NCBI RefSeq assembly: GCF_043641665.1
Contig: NC_092192.1
Location: 17,324,658-17,388,657, forward strand
Direction of reading: 5' to 3'
From: Enoplosus armatus
Lineage: Eukaryota; Chordata; Actinopteri; Centrarchiformes; Enoplosidae
DNA: 64,000 nt
Part shown: one piece after another, positions 5,347-53,782 of the stretch
Layout: each line of letters opens with the position of its first letter
Position numbering within the stretch: the stretch's first letter is position 1
Position numbers and translations under genes: made by a program
Notes under the pieces: model-generated
The model's input: the letters and a program-made list of their open reading frames with translations, nothing else
Told to the model about the DNA's origin: nothing
The model's database searches: none

Positions 5347-10761
<5,415 letters not shown>

Positions 10762-11288
10762 CAGGGCATCCGATCTGACAGGTCGATGCTATGAAGTCTC
10801 GGCCCCACTCGCTTCTGCGTCCAACAACAACCTTTTTTAGGAGTTGGTGAGTTTTGTAGCATGATCAAGAGATCAGTGCAAATGTTCACAATGTCTCCTG
10901 ATACTGGGGCAAAGGCAAGGATGGTCCTTAGTGTATCCACCTAGATCCACCAAGCAGAGGGCAGAGCAGCGTGGGACCATGCGCAAAGCTTGTTTTAAAA
11001 AAAAAAACTGCAGTGGCATCAAGGGGTGAGGACAGATAGAGGCAAAGGGATGGTGTTTACACCATCACACGCCTGTCCTCTCCGGCACATGGTACCCTAA
11101 TGAGCCAAATGTTTGTCCATACCAATTACAGAGCGCTGGGCGTGGAGATGTTGGGGTTAGACAGCAAGCCGGCATAAATAACATACAGCATGAATGAATA
11201 ATTAAAGTAGTATCTTTAACTATTTTAGTTATTTATAACGTTATAATAACATCAGCAAGAACGAACATAATGTTTTCTTATCTGCATT

Positions 11289-31716: not shown

Positions 31717-36893
<5,177 letters not shown>

Positions 36894-37380
36894 GTTTGTG
36901 AACGCCTAATGTTAAATATCTAAGCAGTAAAAGGGCACATGTAGTTGCTAACTGTAGCTTGCAAGCTAAATTTTTGAACCGATTTTGCCGCGATTGTATG
37001 GCCGAAGGCTTCCTTCCTTTTTGTTTATCTTCTCCGAGACGTCCCGTTGTACGTAATGACGTCCAGGTTTTTTCGCCTATCCACTTCGCAACTACGCACG
37101 GCACGCCTGACTATGATCATCATGATGCTGCCTTTACTGGCGCTCGAAGACATGGGAATTACATGAAGCGATCATTACAGACCACACAAACACGACAGCT
37201 AGTCTTGAATGTGGCCCCTTTCATGACTAACTGATATCACCCTCAGCGAGTCATAGACAGCAGCTGGGATCCGCTTGAGAAGAGAACTTTGTTAAACCCG
37301 ACTCTTCAACAGATGAGGAGATCTTTACGTACATTTTGCACAGAATTCACTCCAGTATGGAACAACAACATCCAAAGTAA
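36894..37380. promoter_or_regulatory. ppm1d 5' flank, possible bidirectional promoter
   Basis: The sequence upstream of the ppm1d start is moderately GC-rich, with several CpGs (36980-37100) including TACGTAATGACGTCCAGG, which holds a CRE-like TGACGTC near 37056. On the plus strand a possible non-coding exon ends at a donor-like AAA|GTAAGC at 37376/37377. Promoter position and any divergent transcript are inference. Confidence 0.35.
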
Positions 37381-46302: not shown

Positions 46303-47096
46303 TTGTTTGGGAGGTTAGGTTGGGATGTGCAGCAGGTAAATGTGAGCATGTTCGCACGGTGTTTGACTTGGATTATGTATGAGCACATGAAATTTTGATG
46401 GAGCACTTGAACACAAAGCGTGCACATACACTGTTTTGCACAAAGCTCATAGAGAGCATGTTTGAGATGTGCTGTAGAAGCTCACTCGAGTGTTAGAATA
46501 TGATAGGAAAAGCAACACTGAAGCCATAGTAATCTGCATTCCCTCGCTATGTGTGGATTGGATCAGGCTGAAACAGACAGACTCAGAGTTTGGCTGCGTG
46601 CTCAGGGGGGGCTTCAGAGGAAAGTCCATCTGTCTTCCTCTCTTCTTTATAGTGGAATTTCACACAGGAACATGGTTGTTCATAGTGCTCGCCATCAGGG
46701 TAGATGGTGGACAAGGAGTTTGTGTGATTTGACTTTGTGAGACGAATTGTTTAAACTCCCTGAAACTATTTAATAGGACTTTATTATGCTAATAATAGTG
46801 TAATAAAAGTCTAATGTTATTATAATGTTACTTTTCTTCCTTATTGCAATAGACACAAACATTTCTTACATGTACTAATTTATAAAAACTTTCAATACTA
46901 AAATACTAATAAGTACTAGAAGCATGAAGCCAAAATAAAAGCAAAGATTGTTGCCATCTGACTAACTTCGGAGCACAGTGTATACTGATCTCTTTATCCC
47001 TCCAGCAGGTCTCAAGTTCAGTTCACGTTTTGACCACAGTGTATGTGATGTCCCAACAAGTTCGGTAATAAAGTTTCACCTGTCTCTTGGTTCTAG

Positions 47097-47234
47097 GTTC
47101 ACTAAGGCCTTCTTAAAGGCAGGCTGGGCCATTAAGGACCATGCTGGCTGTACACTCACCCATCACATTCCTTCTCATCAGCCTGCTCTGTGTCAACCGG
47201 CTACAGCAGAGCCTCGCCATGGACGCTTTATCAG
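47097..47234 (+). CDS. robo1: Roundabout receptor (robo1-like), long-form signal-peptide exon
   Basis: The coding part is 47141-47234 (31 codons plus one base, phase 1), ending at donor CAG|GTGAGA. An acceptor (CTGTCTCTTGGTTCTAG, ending 47096) precedes the start, implying an upstream 5' UTR exon. The product starts MLAVHSPITFLLISLLCVN, a signal peptide. It is joined in frame to 49360-49452. Layout and local sequence (ITFLLISLL; a later acidic-DN-GFGYKG end) match the N-terminus of the long isoform of human ROBO1, where a variable leader ends in a DN..LGYTG motif just before the SRLRQEDFPP start of Ig domain 1. Robo is a single-pass axon-guidance receptor for Slit ligands. The Ig exons lie beyond the window. 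Identity rests on about 60 residues plus gene structure, so the paralogue is uncertain. Confidence 0.65.
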
Positions 47235-49359
47235 GTGAGAACCTCCACACACACGACGTAGCAATGTCAAGACTGCACTTTCTTTATGTGTTGTTGTATT
47301 CATGTGTTGTTTGGTGTCCACTTACAAGAGCAGTCTGCACACTGCAGACTATTCAAAAGGCTGTCAGGGTTTAGGGATGTTCATTAATACAATAAGGTGG
47401 AATAACTTTCAGGCGATATGTATAGTTTTCCCCATAAAGTGGGAAATGATATTATAAAGAGGACCCACTCCCTTACTGGTAATATGGCAGCCGTTCTGAA
47501 GTCTAGAGACTTTTCAAGGTGCCACTCAGATGCCAGATTTGGGTCTGTGTGGATGAGAGAAGAATGAAGAAAGAAGACTAAATTTACCAATACTAGTGTA
47601 ACGGAACTTCAGCACCTTGTAGGTGCAGTTATGCTGTCCTCTTGTGGCTGAAAACTTTTAAGACACAGAACTCAGGATATGTATTTATTTATTTTTTGTG
47701 AAATGTCCCTGAAACAGGGAACCCCCAACTTGCTTTTAGCCTTTAGTTGAGCTCAATGTTTTTTGATTTTACCTACCTTCATTTCCCTTCTTTCAGTGTT
47801 ACAGTAATGTGTATGATGATAAATAATTTCCAAGGGTGATCATTTGAGAGGAAGTTTTGTTGTTCAAGAGGTCCAATATCTCTCATTTGATACGACGATT
47901 AACAACATAAAGTAGCATGTTTGGTTTTAAACTAAATGATTAACTTCCATATAGACACAGTCACAGTCTTAGCTTTGTTTAAGAACTTCTGAAATGTTTA
48001 CCTTTGCAACTATACAAACTTGTTGTACATTTTGGGCATTCCACCGGACATATTGATAATCAGTACAGTTATTATTTCATAGTTCTACGTGGCTTTTAAA
48101 ACCTACACTCCAACCTGATAATAAGAAAGTTAGATACGTGCCTTTGTTAGCTTATTGGCTTTAAATCCAATGGCGTGATGAAGTGGTGGCGCCCTCTAGT
48201 GGAATATTTTTAGACAATATCCATGACTATAGGCCATAGTCACAGCCAAGCACCCAGTCAGTGTGTAAAATGTGGGTAAATTAAAATGAAAACTTTATGG
48301 TTGGTGCATGCAAGCATTTGATTTATGAATATTATCGATATCTCACATCTTTCAGATTGTGTTAATCAGTGTTATAACACTTTGAGTACTCTAAACTGTG
48401 CAAAAGGTTTATTGGTTGCTCAGCTAAATTTCCATTTGCAGTCTGTAGTTTGTTGCATTAGATTAGATTAGATTAGTTTCTGCTTACACAGAAGATATCA
48501 TATTCCTTCTGCGACCAAGACGTTAATGCGTTACGTACATACACTTCACCTTCCTGTGACTGCATGATTAAATTTGATTACACCTCACGGTGTCGGCGCT
48601 CCTAGAATGTGCTTCCAGAGCAAAATGTATTCATCTAGTGGCAAGGGAAATCTCTCTTTGCCTTCATGTATTTATAAAACAACTGCAAACTAACTTTAAC
48701 TCGACGAGTCAACATCTGAATCAAATTTAAATTTAGTTTTTTTTACAATGTCAAATAAAGTTAATAAAAGCTCTTTGTTGACACAAAGGGTAGTCATACG
48801 CTGGAAAGTAATAGAATGTGTCCAGGCAGCTTATGTAAATAGTAATGTCATTGTGACTGCTGCGGTTTTTGCAACAATTTTCAGCATCTGTAGGAATCCT
48901 GTATTTCAAACAAACAAAATGACATAAAAGTATCTGCTTGCAGGACATGGGTGCATTGTTTTTTCTCCTTTTTTTTGTTTATTTATTTATTTTTTTGATT
49001 ACTCTATTCCACCACTCTCTTGATACTGAACACAGTTGCAAAAAAATAATAAATAAATAAAAGAAGAATCCTGGAAAACTTTCTTCTTTTGTCTTAGTGG
49101 TTTAAAACTGTAAAGTAAAGAAACTAAGCTATAAATCTGCCAATCCAACAAGAAACATTGAACCTAATAGTCGTATAGGGAGGTTACCATACAAGCAAGC
49201 CTGTTGTAGCCTATTCTTCCGCATGGCTGCCCCTTTAAAAGTTCCACAACATTGATCTATCAGTGAGATTTAGTTTGCTACAAAGAGACGTCCATGTTGG
49301 ACATGGACATTTTGTTTTCTTTTTAATGGTATTACCCACTGTCATTCCCATGCAAACAG

Positions 49360-49452
49360 ATACAGATAAACACAGAGGGATCCGTGAGGTCATCACCCAA
49401 ACACCTGCATCTGGACCAGCATCTGAACAAGACAACGGCTTTGGATACAAAG
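49360..49452 (+). CDS. robo1: robo1-like long-form exon 2 (pre-Ig linker)
   Basis: A 93-bp symmetric exon (phase 1 in, phase 1 out) between a pyrimidine-rich acceptor (CCCATGCAAACAG) and donor AAAG|GTACGG. It encodes a hydrophilic linker rich in Thr, Ser, Asp and Glu that ends EQDNGFGYKG, comparable with the DNDDNSLGYTG end of the human ROBO1 leader. A second AG six bases further in (49365) would drop two residues without changing the frame. It would be skipped by transcripts starting at the 53.7-kb exon. Confidence 0.65.
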
Positions 49453-52400
49453 GTACGGTCCAGGTGCTAAATGTGATTTTGCAATTCCAGTTGAAAAGAA
49501 ACAATAATCATATTTTCCTTTAACCAACCAATGAAGAGCTATCATGTAGAATCAAATCAAAGAATATACTTATTACTATATACATGTTACTTACAGCAGA
49601 TGACTCAAAATAACGTAACTCTTTTATCCAGTGCCTACGCTTTCCTTGGTTTGATCTTGTAAAAGCAGTTTTAAAGAAACGTCTGAAATAAACCTTTACA
49701 AAGCCAGCAGTCAGTAAAGTGGTGCTCCAGGATGTGCTGATTCTGTGTTTGTCCTTTGAAAGATACGATGTTGAACCCAATTCCCAGGAAAAGGACTACG
49801 TTTCCTTTTGCTGACAAAGACTCTAATACCACTTAATGCCAGTTCAGCAGCTGTAGACCTTAAGTGCTGTGTCCAAAGCCAACACAGTTCAATCCCCTCT
49901 CCCTTTTGCTTTGACATTTTATGGTAAGGGCTCTGACATGGGATGTAGAGGGATAGAACAAAGCTAAACGTTTAGGAGTTCTTCCCTATAGCCTCTATGG
50001 TTTCAGAAGATGACAAAATCAGACTTATGTGCTGCACAGTCTTTGCTGACACCTGGGGAAAATTTAAGTTAACATGAAGAAGAAAATGAGATGCTCAAAT
50101 AATGATGTTTTTGGCCTTTTATCTTTAATGGGCCCCATGCAAATGTTGTTTTTTCCTTTTACGGAATCTAAATTGGAGCTTTTACTGGCTTCCATCTGAT
50201 GTAGTTTATGTGGAGCTAATGGTTGAAAGAAGGATTCTTTAGCTGTCTGTTTTCTCTCTCAAGATAAGAAGCCTATTTTTTTTTTCATACCTAAAATCTT
50301 TGTGGCCCAGCAGGGGGAAAAAAAAAAGATGACAGTGAGATTGTGAGAAGTTGAAAGGATGCCCAAGTCTTAACGACTGATAAGACCATCCGGCCGCCAG
50401 TTCGCCTATTCGGAGGGGGATTGAGAGACATGGGCTATTGCATCAGCTTTCCCCACTGTGTTGCGGATGGTGAACATGAAGGCTGCCTCTCATTTTTTGC
50501 TTCCACACTTTGTATGACCCTGAGCAACTGTAGTGATGTGCAGTGAGAGGTGCTGACAAATAGGCGAAGATATAAACAAGTGGAGGGAAATTAAAGAGGC
50601 AACGAGCTGTCACAGATAATGGGAAATAGGGAGAGTGGAGAATCAGCATGCAAAATAAAAGCCGGCATGTGGAAAATAATGTGGTGAAAGGCACAGCTAA
50701 TGGCAGTGATGTGTTACATACGCAGCTATCCGTACGTAGATCCACACAGATCATAGAGTCCACTTGCCCGAGTCCTAAAAACCTGCATTTCACTCCCAAA
50801 AAAAACAGTCTGTATTTTTCATGGACAAAACAATCAACAGTCACTAATAGAGGACTAGCTGAGGCCAAGTTTGTTGCTCTGTAGAGATTCCAAATTATTT
50901 ATTCCTTCATAAATATTTTTGGGATTTGGCTTTGTGCTTTTTGGAGATATTTTTTCCCCTGGCTCAGGACCAACTGGAGAGCCACTTTGGAGTGAAAGAA
51001 ATAAATAAAAATAGGTCCCTCCGCTTGGCACTGTTTCCTTGAAATCCTTGCCATTTCATGTGCTGTGTTGCCATGAAGACGTGCATGTCTTTGTGTCCAT
51101 TTTTCCCCATCTGTTCTTGGAAGTATTGGTGCTGGAGATGCTTTGGATTGTGACCAATTGTGAAATGCACGATATAATTCACAAACCCTGCATTTAGCTG
51201 CACTGCACCTGTTGTTATGTTGAGGCCACACGAGCATAAAGCGAGAGCTCCACTGTTGAACCTCTATCCTCTCGTTATTTGTGCTTCCGCCCGACTGTGA
51301 TGACAGCTACTTTATTCCTGTCAGTGTTATGAAATGAGACTAATTGTGCAGTCATTACATGACCAAGACCATATTGTCCTCTAGAGTACTATGGTACTAT
51401 TGCAATCATTCAGTCTCAGCCAAGAGAGCTGCCAGAGAGTCATATAGTGGGGAAAAGAACCACCATAGCAAGATGCAGCAAATAATTAAGGCTGAATAAT
51501 AAGGGAAATGGCAAGAAATATAGCATATATACATTTCAGTGCCATTGTGTTGCTGCAAACATGTAGAATAGGGTATGGCATGGCAAGAGGGCAAAGACAG
51601 GAGAGTGGAAGGTGTTCTTAAATGGGGAAAAAAAATAGAGCGCATGTTTTATAAATGCAGACGTGCTCATGGTGGGACTGTAATTTCTCATATTTTACTG
51701 GTTGTTTACCAACTCAGCTTAGAGAACAGGCTCCATTCGGCAGAGCCACCAGTGGTCCACAATGGGCAATTAAAGGATTTGAGGCGAGAGGTCAGGGAGG
51801 GCTGGCTAAGTAAACTTTGTTCAGTCTAAATGTGACTTAAAAGACCAGAAGCGTCACTGTTTTTTTCTGTGGCATGTGAGCGAGACAGAGAGATTGAATT
51901 ATGTCTAAATGCGTAATTACCGTCTCTTTTTCTTCTGTTACTAATTTTGGTTGGACATGTGAAGGAATTGTGTACGCTTTTTATAGTGGAAATTATGCAT
52001 ATTTTTGTAGTGTCATGCAGCCTGTCTGCTTATTCCACGGGGTGTTGGAGATCTCAGTGTGGAGAGGGCAGAATTAGAACGCAAGAAGGGTTTTAACCTT
52101 ATTTCAAATCTAAAACTGAAGATGGAGAATTTGTAACCACAGTGGTTATGTTACTGAAGACATAGGGGATATGAACAGCCCAAATTGCTAAGTGGAAATC
52201 AATACAAAATGAAAAACAACATCTTAAATGAAACAATGAGCTTTTCCTATTACAATTGCCTCTCCAACAGACTGTGCTGCAGCCCTGCAGCCAGCAGAGG
52301 GAGTGCTGACCTGCTTAGACAACAAAAGACATTTCTGAGGTTCACCAGGTCGGAAATATACTGTGACTATGAACTGTAATGGATTCATCTTTCTCAATTC

Positions 52401-52660
52401 AAAATGTATGATGTTTAAGTAGAATTTCACTCCGGCTATGTGAGTATTACTTCAGCGTGTTTGATATCAAGACGTAAAATGTTAGGTGTTACATTTCTAA
52501 TGCACTTAAAATGTCATTTTATTTCCCAGTGGTATGTTGAGGGGTCAGAGGGTGAAACCGTCATTGATTTTTATCACAGAAAGAAGAAGCACAATACTGT
52601 TGCTTCCACCGGGTGTGGATGAAGGCACATTTGACTGGCTCATTAAGAACACAGTATTAT

Positions 52661-52661
52661 T

Positions 52662-52709
<48 letters not shown>
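52661..52709. repeat. (TA)n(TG)n compound microsatellite
   Basis: About ten TA units followed by about fourteen TG units. Confidence 0.95.
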
Positions 52710-52712
<3 letters not shown>

Positions 52713-53159
52713 CCTGAGCTGATCTCTTTAGGTTTTAATAAGGACACAGTGCACGTCCCTCTGTCTTGATAGGAGGATAAAAATGCTATATAAATCATTC
52801 ATCAAGGTCAAATGATGTTCACTTTCAACTGTAGACACACTTTAAAATATTAAGCACATTTTGGTTGGGGAATTCTGCAGCTCATAAAAGGCTCTTTTGA
52901 ACATATGATGGACACTCAAGACAAAGCGTTTAATTGGTGCAGCCTGGATTCTCCTGCAAGCTGCTGCCATTCACAACAGTTTGAATGATGTGACTTGATC
53001 AGTTTATATTGTTCCAGTTTGCTGTAATGTATCAGGCTGCTGCAGGCTGGAGGCTTTTGTCAGAAGGGACGAGCCTGATGCAAGTGGAGCCTCGTGTTGT
53101 GAATGTATCCCTATGCGGTTAAATGGTTCCTGACTCGCAGGAATCTCCTCTGCACAACA

Positions 53160-53721
53160 GAAAAGCCTCTGACTGGGTAGGAAAACCAAACCATCACTGA
53201 GCGCAGAGACGCACGGCGCCTCGTCCAACCAGCGCCAGTCCCACGAAACCGGATCAAAACTACGCATTTAAACCATTAAAGTGAGCGCAACTGGACGCGT
53301 CCTCTCTTTGGATCCGCGCGTCCCCGTTGAGCCGCGGAAAAGCGTCTCCTGAAGTGGAACTAACGGCGTGTCCCATCACCGATGAATCCCGCGAAGTTAT
53401 CAGCGTTTGGAAGTGAGGAGTCGTGCAGGAGCGGAGAGAATCCAAGCGGCGGTGAGTGGACTACTTCCCGAGTGGCCCGCGACGATGTCTCCGACTGACC
53501 GGAACTTTGATTTAAACAGAAACCCGCTCTCTGAGGAGCAGTTCTGAACATTGTTGTCTGCATTATTGCGGAGTTCAGGAACTCTCCTCCACCCGCCGCC
53601 GCCCCCCACCACCACCACCACCACTACCATCGGCTCTGCGGCAGAAGTTGTGATTTAGATGAAATAGACAACAAACAAAGAGCTTTCTAACTGGATTTAC
53701 ACCGTTTCCAGCTGCGCTTGA
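53160..53721 (+). promoter_or_regulatory. CpG-rich internal promoter region of the robo1-like gene
   Basis: Local rise in GC and CpG (GGACGCGTCC, GATCCGCGCGTCC, GAGCCGCGG, CCCGCGACGATG) in otherwise AT-rich intronic sequence, ending at the short-form start codon. A TATA-like box is not obvious. A (CCA)n run lies at 53609-53628. Confidence 0.5.
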
Positions 53722-53782
53722 ATGATGCCTGCCTGTCTGACGGGAATTTACTGTCTACTGGCATTTCTACAGATTTGTTCAG
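53280..53782 (+). CDS. robo1: robo1-like short-form (DUTT1-type) first exon with GC-rich 5' UTR
   Basis: The coding part is 53722-53782 (20 codons plus one base, phase 1), then donor CAG|GTATGA. The product starts MMPACLTGIYCLLAFLQICS, a compact signal peptide. Human ROBO1's short (DUTT1) form likewise has a 19-residue leader, MIAEPAHFYLFGLICLCSG, directly before SRLRQEDF. The upstream leader 53280-53721 is GC- and CpG-rich compared with its surroundings, as expected for a CpG-island promoter inside the long-form intron; its 5' limit is approximate. The two adjacent ATG codons (53722 and 53725) are in frame. The next exon is outside the window, so the intron exceeds 10 kb. Confidence 0.65.

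Follow-up and report, generated by a model that had tools for sequence, protein, structure and literature searches.

The window investigated in this study is a stretch of 64,000 nucleotides from Enoplosus armatus (C21:17324658-17388657 of the 580-Mb genome), which was analyzed together with the next 200 kb. On its plus strand it carries three small leader exons located upstream of a Roundabout receptor gene of the robo1 type; two of them form a long leader and the third encodes a short, DUTT1-like leader. Positions are window coordinates unless a C21 or C8 coordinate is given, and exon/intron boundaries are marked by a slash.

Leader exons and the robo1 gene downstream

The first exon of the long leader (47097..47234, plus strand) comprises a short 5' untranslated part and a coding part (47141-47234) of 31 codons plus one nucleotide, which begins with the ATG at 47141, encodes the signal peptide MLAVHSPITFLLISLLCVNRLQQSLAMDALS and ends in phase 1 at the donor CAG/GTGAGA. 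The acceptor TTGGTTCTAG ends at 47096, directly before 47097, where the exon probably starts. This acceptor suggests a non-coding exon upstream of the coding leader; the non-coding first exon itself was not located 5' of 47097. The second exon (49360..49452, plus strand, 93 nucleotides) is symmetric with phases 1-1, is bounded by the acceptor GCAAACAG and the donor AAG/GTACGG and contains no stop codon in the phase-1 frame. The residues it encodes, which end in DNGFGYK/G, form the short tail at the N-terminus of the long form. Joining both exons yields the long leader MLAVHSPITFLLISLLCVNRLQQSLAMDALS-DTDKHRGIREVITQTPASGPASEQDNGFGYK-G, i.e., a signal exon followed by a 1-1 exon ending in G-Y-x-G, with x being K in the window copy and T in human.

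The leader exon of the short form (53722..53782, plus strand) sits downstream of the long leader and consists of 20 codons plus one nucleotide starting with ATG. It encodes MMPACLTGIYCLLAFLQICS and ends in phase 1 at the donor CAG/GTATGA; the joined short leader is MMPACLTGIYCLLAFLQICS-G, which ends in C-S-G. The start of the short form is covered by a CpG-rich stretch (53001..53750, no strand assigned; GC content up to 0.59, observed/expected CpG ratio up to 1.3). In a scan of positions 1-71600 with a sliding window of 300 nucleotides and thresholds of 0.50 for GC content and 0.65 for the CpG ratio, eight stretches passed, among which 53001-53750 is the only one between the start of a PP2C phosphatase gene, which we take to be ppm1d (36301-36900), and the first immunoglobulin (Ig1) exon of robo1 (71201-71550). 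The stretch is likely to contain both the promoter of the proximal start and the 5' untranslated region belonging to the short form.

The Ig1 exon, which begins with SRLRQEDF (SRLRQEDFPPRIVEHP), was identified by tblastn with the human ROBO1 sequence at 71281-71607 on the plus strand, 7.3 kb beyond the window end. It is 89% identical to the human sequence and is entered in phase 1 through the acceptor CCCTCAAG/GG; therefore, any phase-1 leader ending in G completes a glycine codon (GGG) at the junction. Spliced alignment extended the gene to a body of 27 exons (71281-122477) that encodes Ig1-5 and Fn1-3, followed by the transmembrane segment and the greater part of the cytoplasmic tail. Since such an alignment penalizes stop codons, the open frame of this body is no independent evidence, and the last two alignment pieces (125491 and 126078), which looked spurious or weak, were left out of the gene model. 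Identity of the body amounts to 951 of 1495 aligned residues for human ROBO1 vs. 685 of 1297 for ROBO2. The cytoplasmic part contributes 335/636 vs. 163/440 identical residues (scores of 1297 vs. 252), and the Ig and Fn part 581/798 vs. 495/795.

A first-pass annotation of the window, in which no part of the receptor body is contained, had proposed the three plus-strand exons, and their coordinates, AG/GT sites and phases (1, 1-1 and 1) were all confirmed. It had also named the phase-1 SRLRQEDF exon to be sought to the right of 64 kb, which is present and is followed by the rest of robo1. Hence, downstream exon, gene, phases and isoform logic were correctly foreseen, and the layout found is that of the human plan it had invoked, in which either a long or a short leader is joined to SRLRQEDF.

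Leaders on proteins of relatives and the second robo1 copy

In order to evaluate which leaders occur on robo proteins of other species, database records were screened with the long form (residues 1-230), yielding 3404 proteins of which the best 120 were analyzed. Leaders were classified by simple patterns, with those ending in Y-T/K/R-G or of the V-K-G type counted as long. Among the best 120, 91 records carry a long leader, 14 a short one and 15 neither; ten of the latter, all from UniRef alone, begin without a recognizable leader. The earlier expectation that gene finders could easily miss these exons was thus mostly wrong, since 105 of the best 120 records carry one of the two leaders. In Channa P0095, another of these 15 records, the first signal exon is joined straight to Ig1, a skip that is possible because the 1-1 exon is symmetric. 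The long leader of the window is identical to that of Siniperca chuatsi P0002 in 50 of 63 residues (~79%) and to that of Sander lucioperca in 48 of 63.

The short-form search (residues 1-48) retrieved 2320 proteins, and the best 120 were again analyzed. All 48 residues match in Sander lucioperca P0204, Etheostoma spectabile P0075 and Perca flavescens P0085, including the short leader with its junction glycine (21/21 in each). The comparison of both leaders with fish Robo1 isoforms, which had been recommended at the outset, was therefore positive. Moreover, Sander lucioperca P0007 (X1, long) and P0204 (X2, short) share bodies of 1545 residues that are identical letter for letter. Among 308 records, identical bodies were shared by two further sets of long and short forms, namely Columba P0126 and P0201 with P0272 and Falco P0147 with P0278, the Falco records originating from different species of that genus. 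When the long leader of a lizard protein (P0063, residues 1-62) was used as query, 84 proteins were retrieved, which are tetrapod judging by their names. Long and short forms are listed for both fish and tetrapods, and the suggestion that the dual leaders are ancient in vertebrates is supported as far as bony vertebrates are concerned.

In the bird robo1 models P0168, P0170 and P0178, another first exon (MATTVTPVTPSAALVLFPT-like) is joined to the 1-1 exon. Judging from such models, more than one alternative start seems to be compatible with the 1-1 exon, depending on the lineage.

Downstream of robo1, a robo2-type gene is encoded on the minus strand (202.8 to ~133.9 kb), tail-to-tail with robo1; its Ig1-4 are identical to ROBO2 in 310 of 389 residues and to ROBO1 in 281 of 389. 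A tail-to-tail arrangement of ROBO1 and ROBO2 was reported for the vertebrates tabulated in PMC6389290. Searching the own genome with Ig1-2 revealed seven robo-like Ig1 exons. Besides that of the window robo1 (C21 17395940, plus strand), these are located at C21 17527147 (minus), C8 9419503 (plus), C8 9695367 (minus), C21 22326923 (plus, 88% to human ROBO1 Ig1), C21 22398146 (minus, only 52%) and C8 11738107 (plus, 86%). The last three probably represent robo3 copies and a robo4-like gene. The pair at C8 9419503 and 9695367 is likewise arranged tail-to-tail and was taken as a putative co-orthologous robo2/robo1 pair originating from the teleost genome duplication, because duplicates of all three genes (robo1a/b, robo2a/b and robo3a/b) were reported for teleosts (PMC4011710). 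Upstream of both robo2 copies, a short ROBO2b-like leader was detected: MGPLQYLFLCGLLYTQTD/G at 206534-206480 for the C21 copy, ranking first of 582 candidates, and MGPLAFILVAGLLYFQVD/G at C8 9407460-9407514, ranking first of 400. The search for a ROBO2a leader, which covered 61 kb upstream of C21 robo2 and 40 kb upstream of C8 robo2, was negative.

The C8 robo1 copy features the same exon order as the window upstream of 9695690 on the minus strand, namely 1-1 exon, short leader and Ig1 exon. Its 1-1 exon (TGVAQDGDTEGATPAPTTEHEDDNSLGYT/G, C8 9727163-9727074, minus) scores 65 against the human exon, with a best unrelated score of 14 among 884 candidates, and its short leader (MMSPTSIGFVFLLGILHVCS/G, C8 9711800-9711740, minus) scores 35 against that of the window, with a best unrelated score of 22 among 414 candidates. 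A further leader exon, MQASEAGMAGGRMPLLLLVVLAEVLSGLCLPGDGSGKYKGSWRWKGDRS (MQASEAG.., locus L032, C8:9745276-9745130, minus), is ~88% identical to the start of P0089; the NCBI models P0089, P0099, P0106, P0113 and P0120 join a similar exon to the 1-1 exon. Considering these models, the C8 copy probably has three alternative leaders. In addition, an open frame of 91 residues, which has an ATG of its own and a hydrophobic core, runs unbroken into the 1-1 exon (locus L030, C8:9727344-9727074, minus). It may reflect chance, a retained or very short (60-nucleotide) intron, or another start; only the MQASEAG.. exon, and not this frame, was seen on NCBI models. Conserved non-coding blocks between the two robo1 copies were sought by blastn and discarded, since matches beyond the Ig1 exon were multiple or out of order and are probably repeats.

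For comparison of the 1-1 exon ends, the best 120 of the 3404 long-form records, a list ranked by likeness to the window protein and hence not a fair sample, were grouped by receptor body rather than by leader into 74 window-type and 46 C8-type proteins; P0047, P0048, P0051, P0055 and P0057 are almost equidistant from both groups and were kept where their score placed them. C8-type proteins with a leader of at least 45 residues end in GYTG in 45 of 45 cases and in DNSLGYTG in 42 of 45. Among window-type proteins with leaders of at least the same length, YKG ends predominate (43/49), accompanied by one GYRG, two GYTG (P0028 of Diretmus and P0051 of Salvelinus, the grouping of the latter being ambiguous) and three other ends; P0041 and P0052 of the last category contain DNSLGYT further inside. 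In the tetrapod search, DNSLGYTG was present in 82 of 83 new records, a list biased by its retrieval with this leader. Mean pairwise identity rises from 0.36 in the first 25 residues to 0.81 in the last 20 residues of the leader in the GYTG-ending group, and from 0.41 to 0.54 in the YKG/YRG-ending group, where the groups were set by leader ending and the last-20 figures are partly high by construction. The initial view that little leader sequence is conserved thus holds for the signal peptides and fails for the end of the 1-1 exon, for which strong conservation is seen in tetrapods as well as in fish copies of the C8 type.

It is conceivable, albeit rather unlikely, that DNSLGYTG, placed before the Slit-binding Ig1, serves a function specific to the long ROBO1 form and has therefore hardly changed in tetrapods and one teleost copy, while the window copy exchanged T for K and became relaxed, and that the two copies may have divided the long-form task between them. 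Splice-site constraint instead of protein function could be behind part of the conservation. A text search for the letters DNSLGYTG returned no paper, which is a weak test of novelty.

Two proposed starts of one receptor and alternative explanations

Taken together, we are highly confident that the window represents the 5' end of one of two teleost robo1 genes, in which two alternative transcription starts feed one receptor. In the proposed arrangement, transcripts from the distal start would join the signal-peptide exon at 47097-47234 to the 1-1 exon at 49360-49452, with the Ig1 exon at 71281 following next, so that the mature long receptor would carry a tail of ~35 residues before Ig1. Transcripts from the proximal, CpG-rich start would contain the exon at 53722-53782, encoding a signal peptide only, joined directly to the same Ig1 exon, and the mature short receptor would begin at about SRLRQEDF. 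Every leader terminates in phase 1 and contributes the G of the junction glycine. Exon structure, phases, the downstream gene and the presence of both leaders on proteins of relatives are direct observations. In the proposed reading, each leader would have its own promoter in this species, the signal peptides would be cleaved at the predicted sites, and the main role of the design would be that one Slit receptor can be expressed from two promoters in different cells or at different stages.

How well the leader exons stand out by chance was evaluated by aligning all candidate exons to the human ROBO1 leaders. The 1-1 exon ranks first among 9403 open AG..GT candidates with phases 1-1 (score 27, best unrelated 18); these comprise 1270 + 1274 + 3439 + 3420 candidates from both strands of 264 kb, less ~0.3 kb at the Ig1 exon. 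The first signal exon ranks first of 696 on the plus strand of its own 71 kb with a score of 15.

Several observations weigh against the proposed arrangement. The opposite strand of the same 71 kb reaches a score of 16 for the first signal exon, and the 192-kb controls reach 26 and 28; by alignment to the human leader alone, this exon is not exceptional. The short leader ranks only 18th of 696 against the human leader (score 13, best 23). Furthermore, the distal promoter was not located, and the scan described above detected no CpG-rich stretch from ppm1d up to 53 kb. For the C8 copy, none of 208 candidates in ~18 kb upstream of the 1-1 exon resembled the canonical signal exon. Ig1-4 score nearly equally against the solved chains of ROBO1 (734.1 bits) and ROBO2 (730.1 bits), and therefore the robo1 assignment rests on the remaining body and on the relatives. 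Finally, the database proteins are mostly predicted models. Of the three exons, only the 1-1 exon is convincing by chance-ranking, and both signal-peptide exons need outside evidence; they stand because a robo1 body lies downstream and because near-identical or identical leaders are present on fish robo1 proteins.

Among other explanations, a single distal promoter combined with alternative splicing, in which the exon at 53.7 kb would be an alternative internal exon carrying an ATG of its own, is considered improbable. It would fit an acceptor-like CCGTTTCCAG ending at 53711, 10 nucleotides before the short-leader ATG, and a donor-like GCG/GTGAGT at ~53452, both read by eye; therefore, splicing may occur within the 5' untranslated region of the short form. 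The CpG richness of 53001-53750 and the separate mammalian transcription start sites TSS1 and TSS2 described in PMC6389290 favor a second promoter instead. Still less credible, and in our view close to negligible, is that the exons are part of another gene for a secreted or membrane protein, e.g., as a neighbor's signal-peptide exon, and resemble ROBO1 leaders by chance: although each signal-peptide exon is weak alone by alignment and the window harbors annotated-looking genes of the tbx2/3 and ppm1d types on the other strand, in robo1 proteins of fish, leaders that are identical or ~79% identical (50/63) directly precede the same body starting with SRLRQEDF, and the C8 copy repeats the exon order. 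Carbonic anhydrase or another signal-peptide gene as exon owner was ruled out by the SRLRQEDF exon and the protein matches.

Regarding the neighbors on the minus strand, exons of the tbx2/3-type T-box gene were located at 7296-10788, with Pfam matches to the T-box and the TBX2-3 repressor domain, and those of the PP2C phosphatase gene at 31717-36905, with a Pfam PP2C match in two of three frames. The CpG-rich start of ppm1d (36301-36900) faces the robo1 long leader. A two-way promoter shared by both is possible, and is offered here only as an idea.

Comparison with known ROBO systems

For mammalian ROBO1, two starts have been described, the distal TSS2 and the proximal TSS1, whose expression differs in human data (PMC6389290), and in the long form, coding sequence was reported to begin only after an initial non-coding exon (PMC4751651). 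In endothelial cells, hypoxia lowers above all the N-terminally longer ROBO1 form; the authors of that report regarded the roles of both forms as unknown and considered that affinity for the ligand could be influenced by the extension (PMC3411717). Alternative promoters that place alternative N-termini on one receptor were also described for ROBO2 (ROBO2a/ROBO2b) and ROBO3 (Robo3A/Robo3B) (PMC7010700, PMC5028924). These pairs resemble the window robo1 in coupling alternative promoters to alternative N-termini. No 1-1 tail exon is known for either of them, and neither a ROBO2a nor a Robo3A leader was located in the present analysis.

The arrangement of the window corresponds to that of human and mouse ROBO1a (NM_002941) and DUTT1/ROBO1b (NM_133631), in which either a signal exon plus a 1-1 tail exon or a short signal exon is spliced in phase 1 to SRLRQEDF. 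Shared features also include a putative proximal promoter placed between long leader and Ig1 and the tail-to-tail position of ROBO2. Unlike in human, where the starts lie ~0.75 Mb apart (PMC6389290), both leaders of the window are located at most 24 kb from the Ig1 exon. Moreover, the leader sequence has diverged and the tail ends in GYKG instead of the human GYTG. A close counterpart is the Sander lucioperca "roundabout homolog 1-like" pair X1/X2, with the same two leaders on one body and ordinary divergence only. The C8 copy shares the exon order but keeps DNSLGYTG and has the additional MQASEAG.. leader exon.

By analogy, the mammalian style of two-promoter use may operate in this fish. The raw sequence appears to confirm both ROBO1 starts in a fish, and the compact locus (24 kb from the first leader to Ig1) makes both promoters testable in one construct. 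What the N-terminal tail does is an old question, for which a tail end kept in one fish copy and changed in the other provides a residue-level handle. The window thus holds the known ROBO1 long/DUTT1 pair in a fish and no new device, already annotated as isoforms in NCBI models of related fish.

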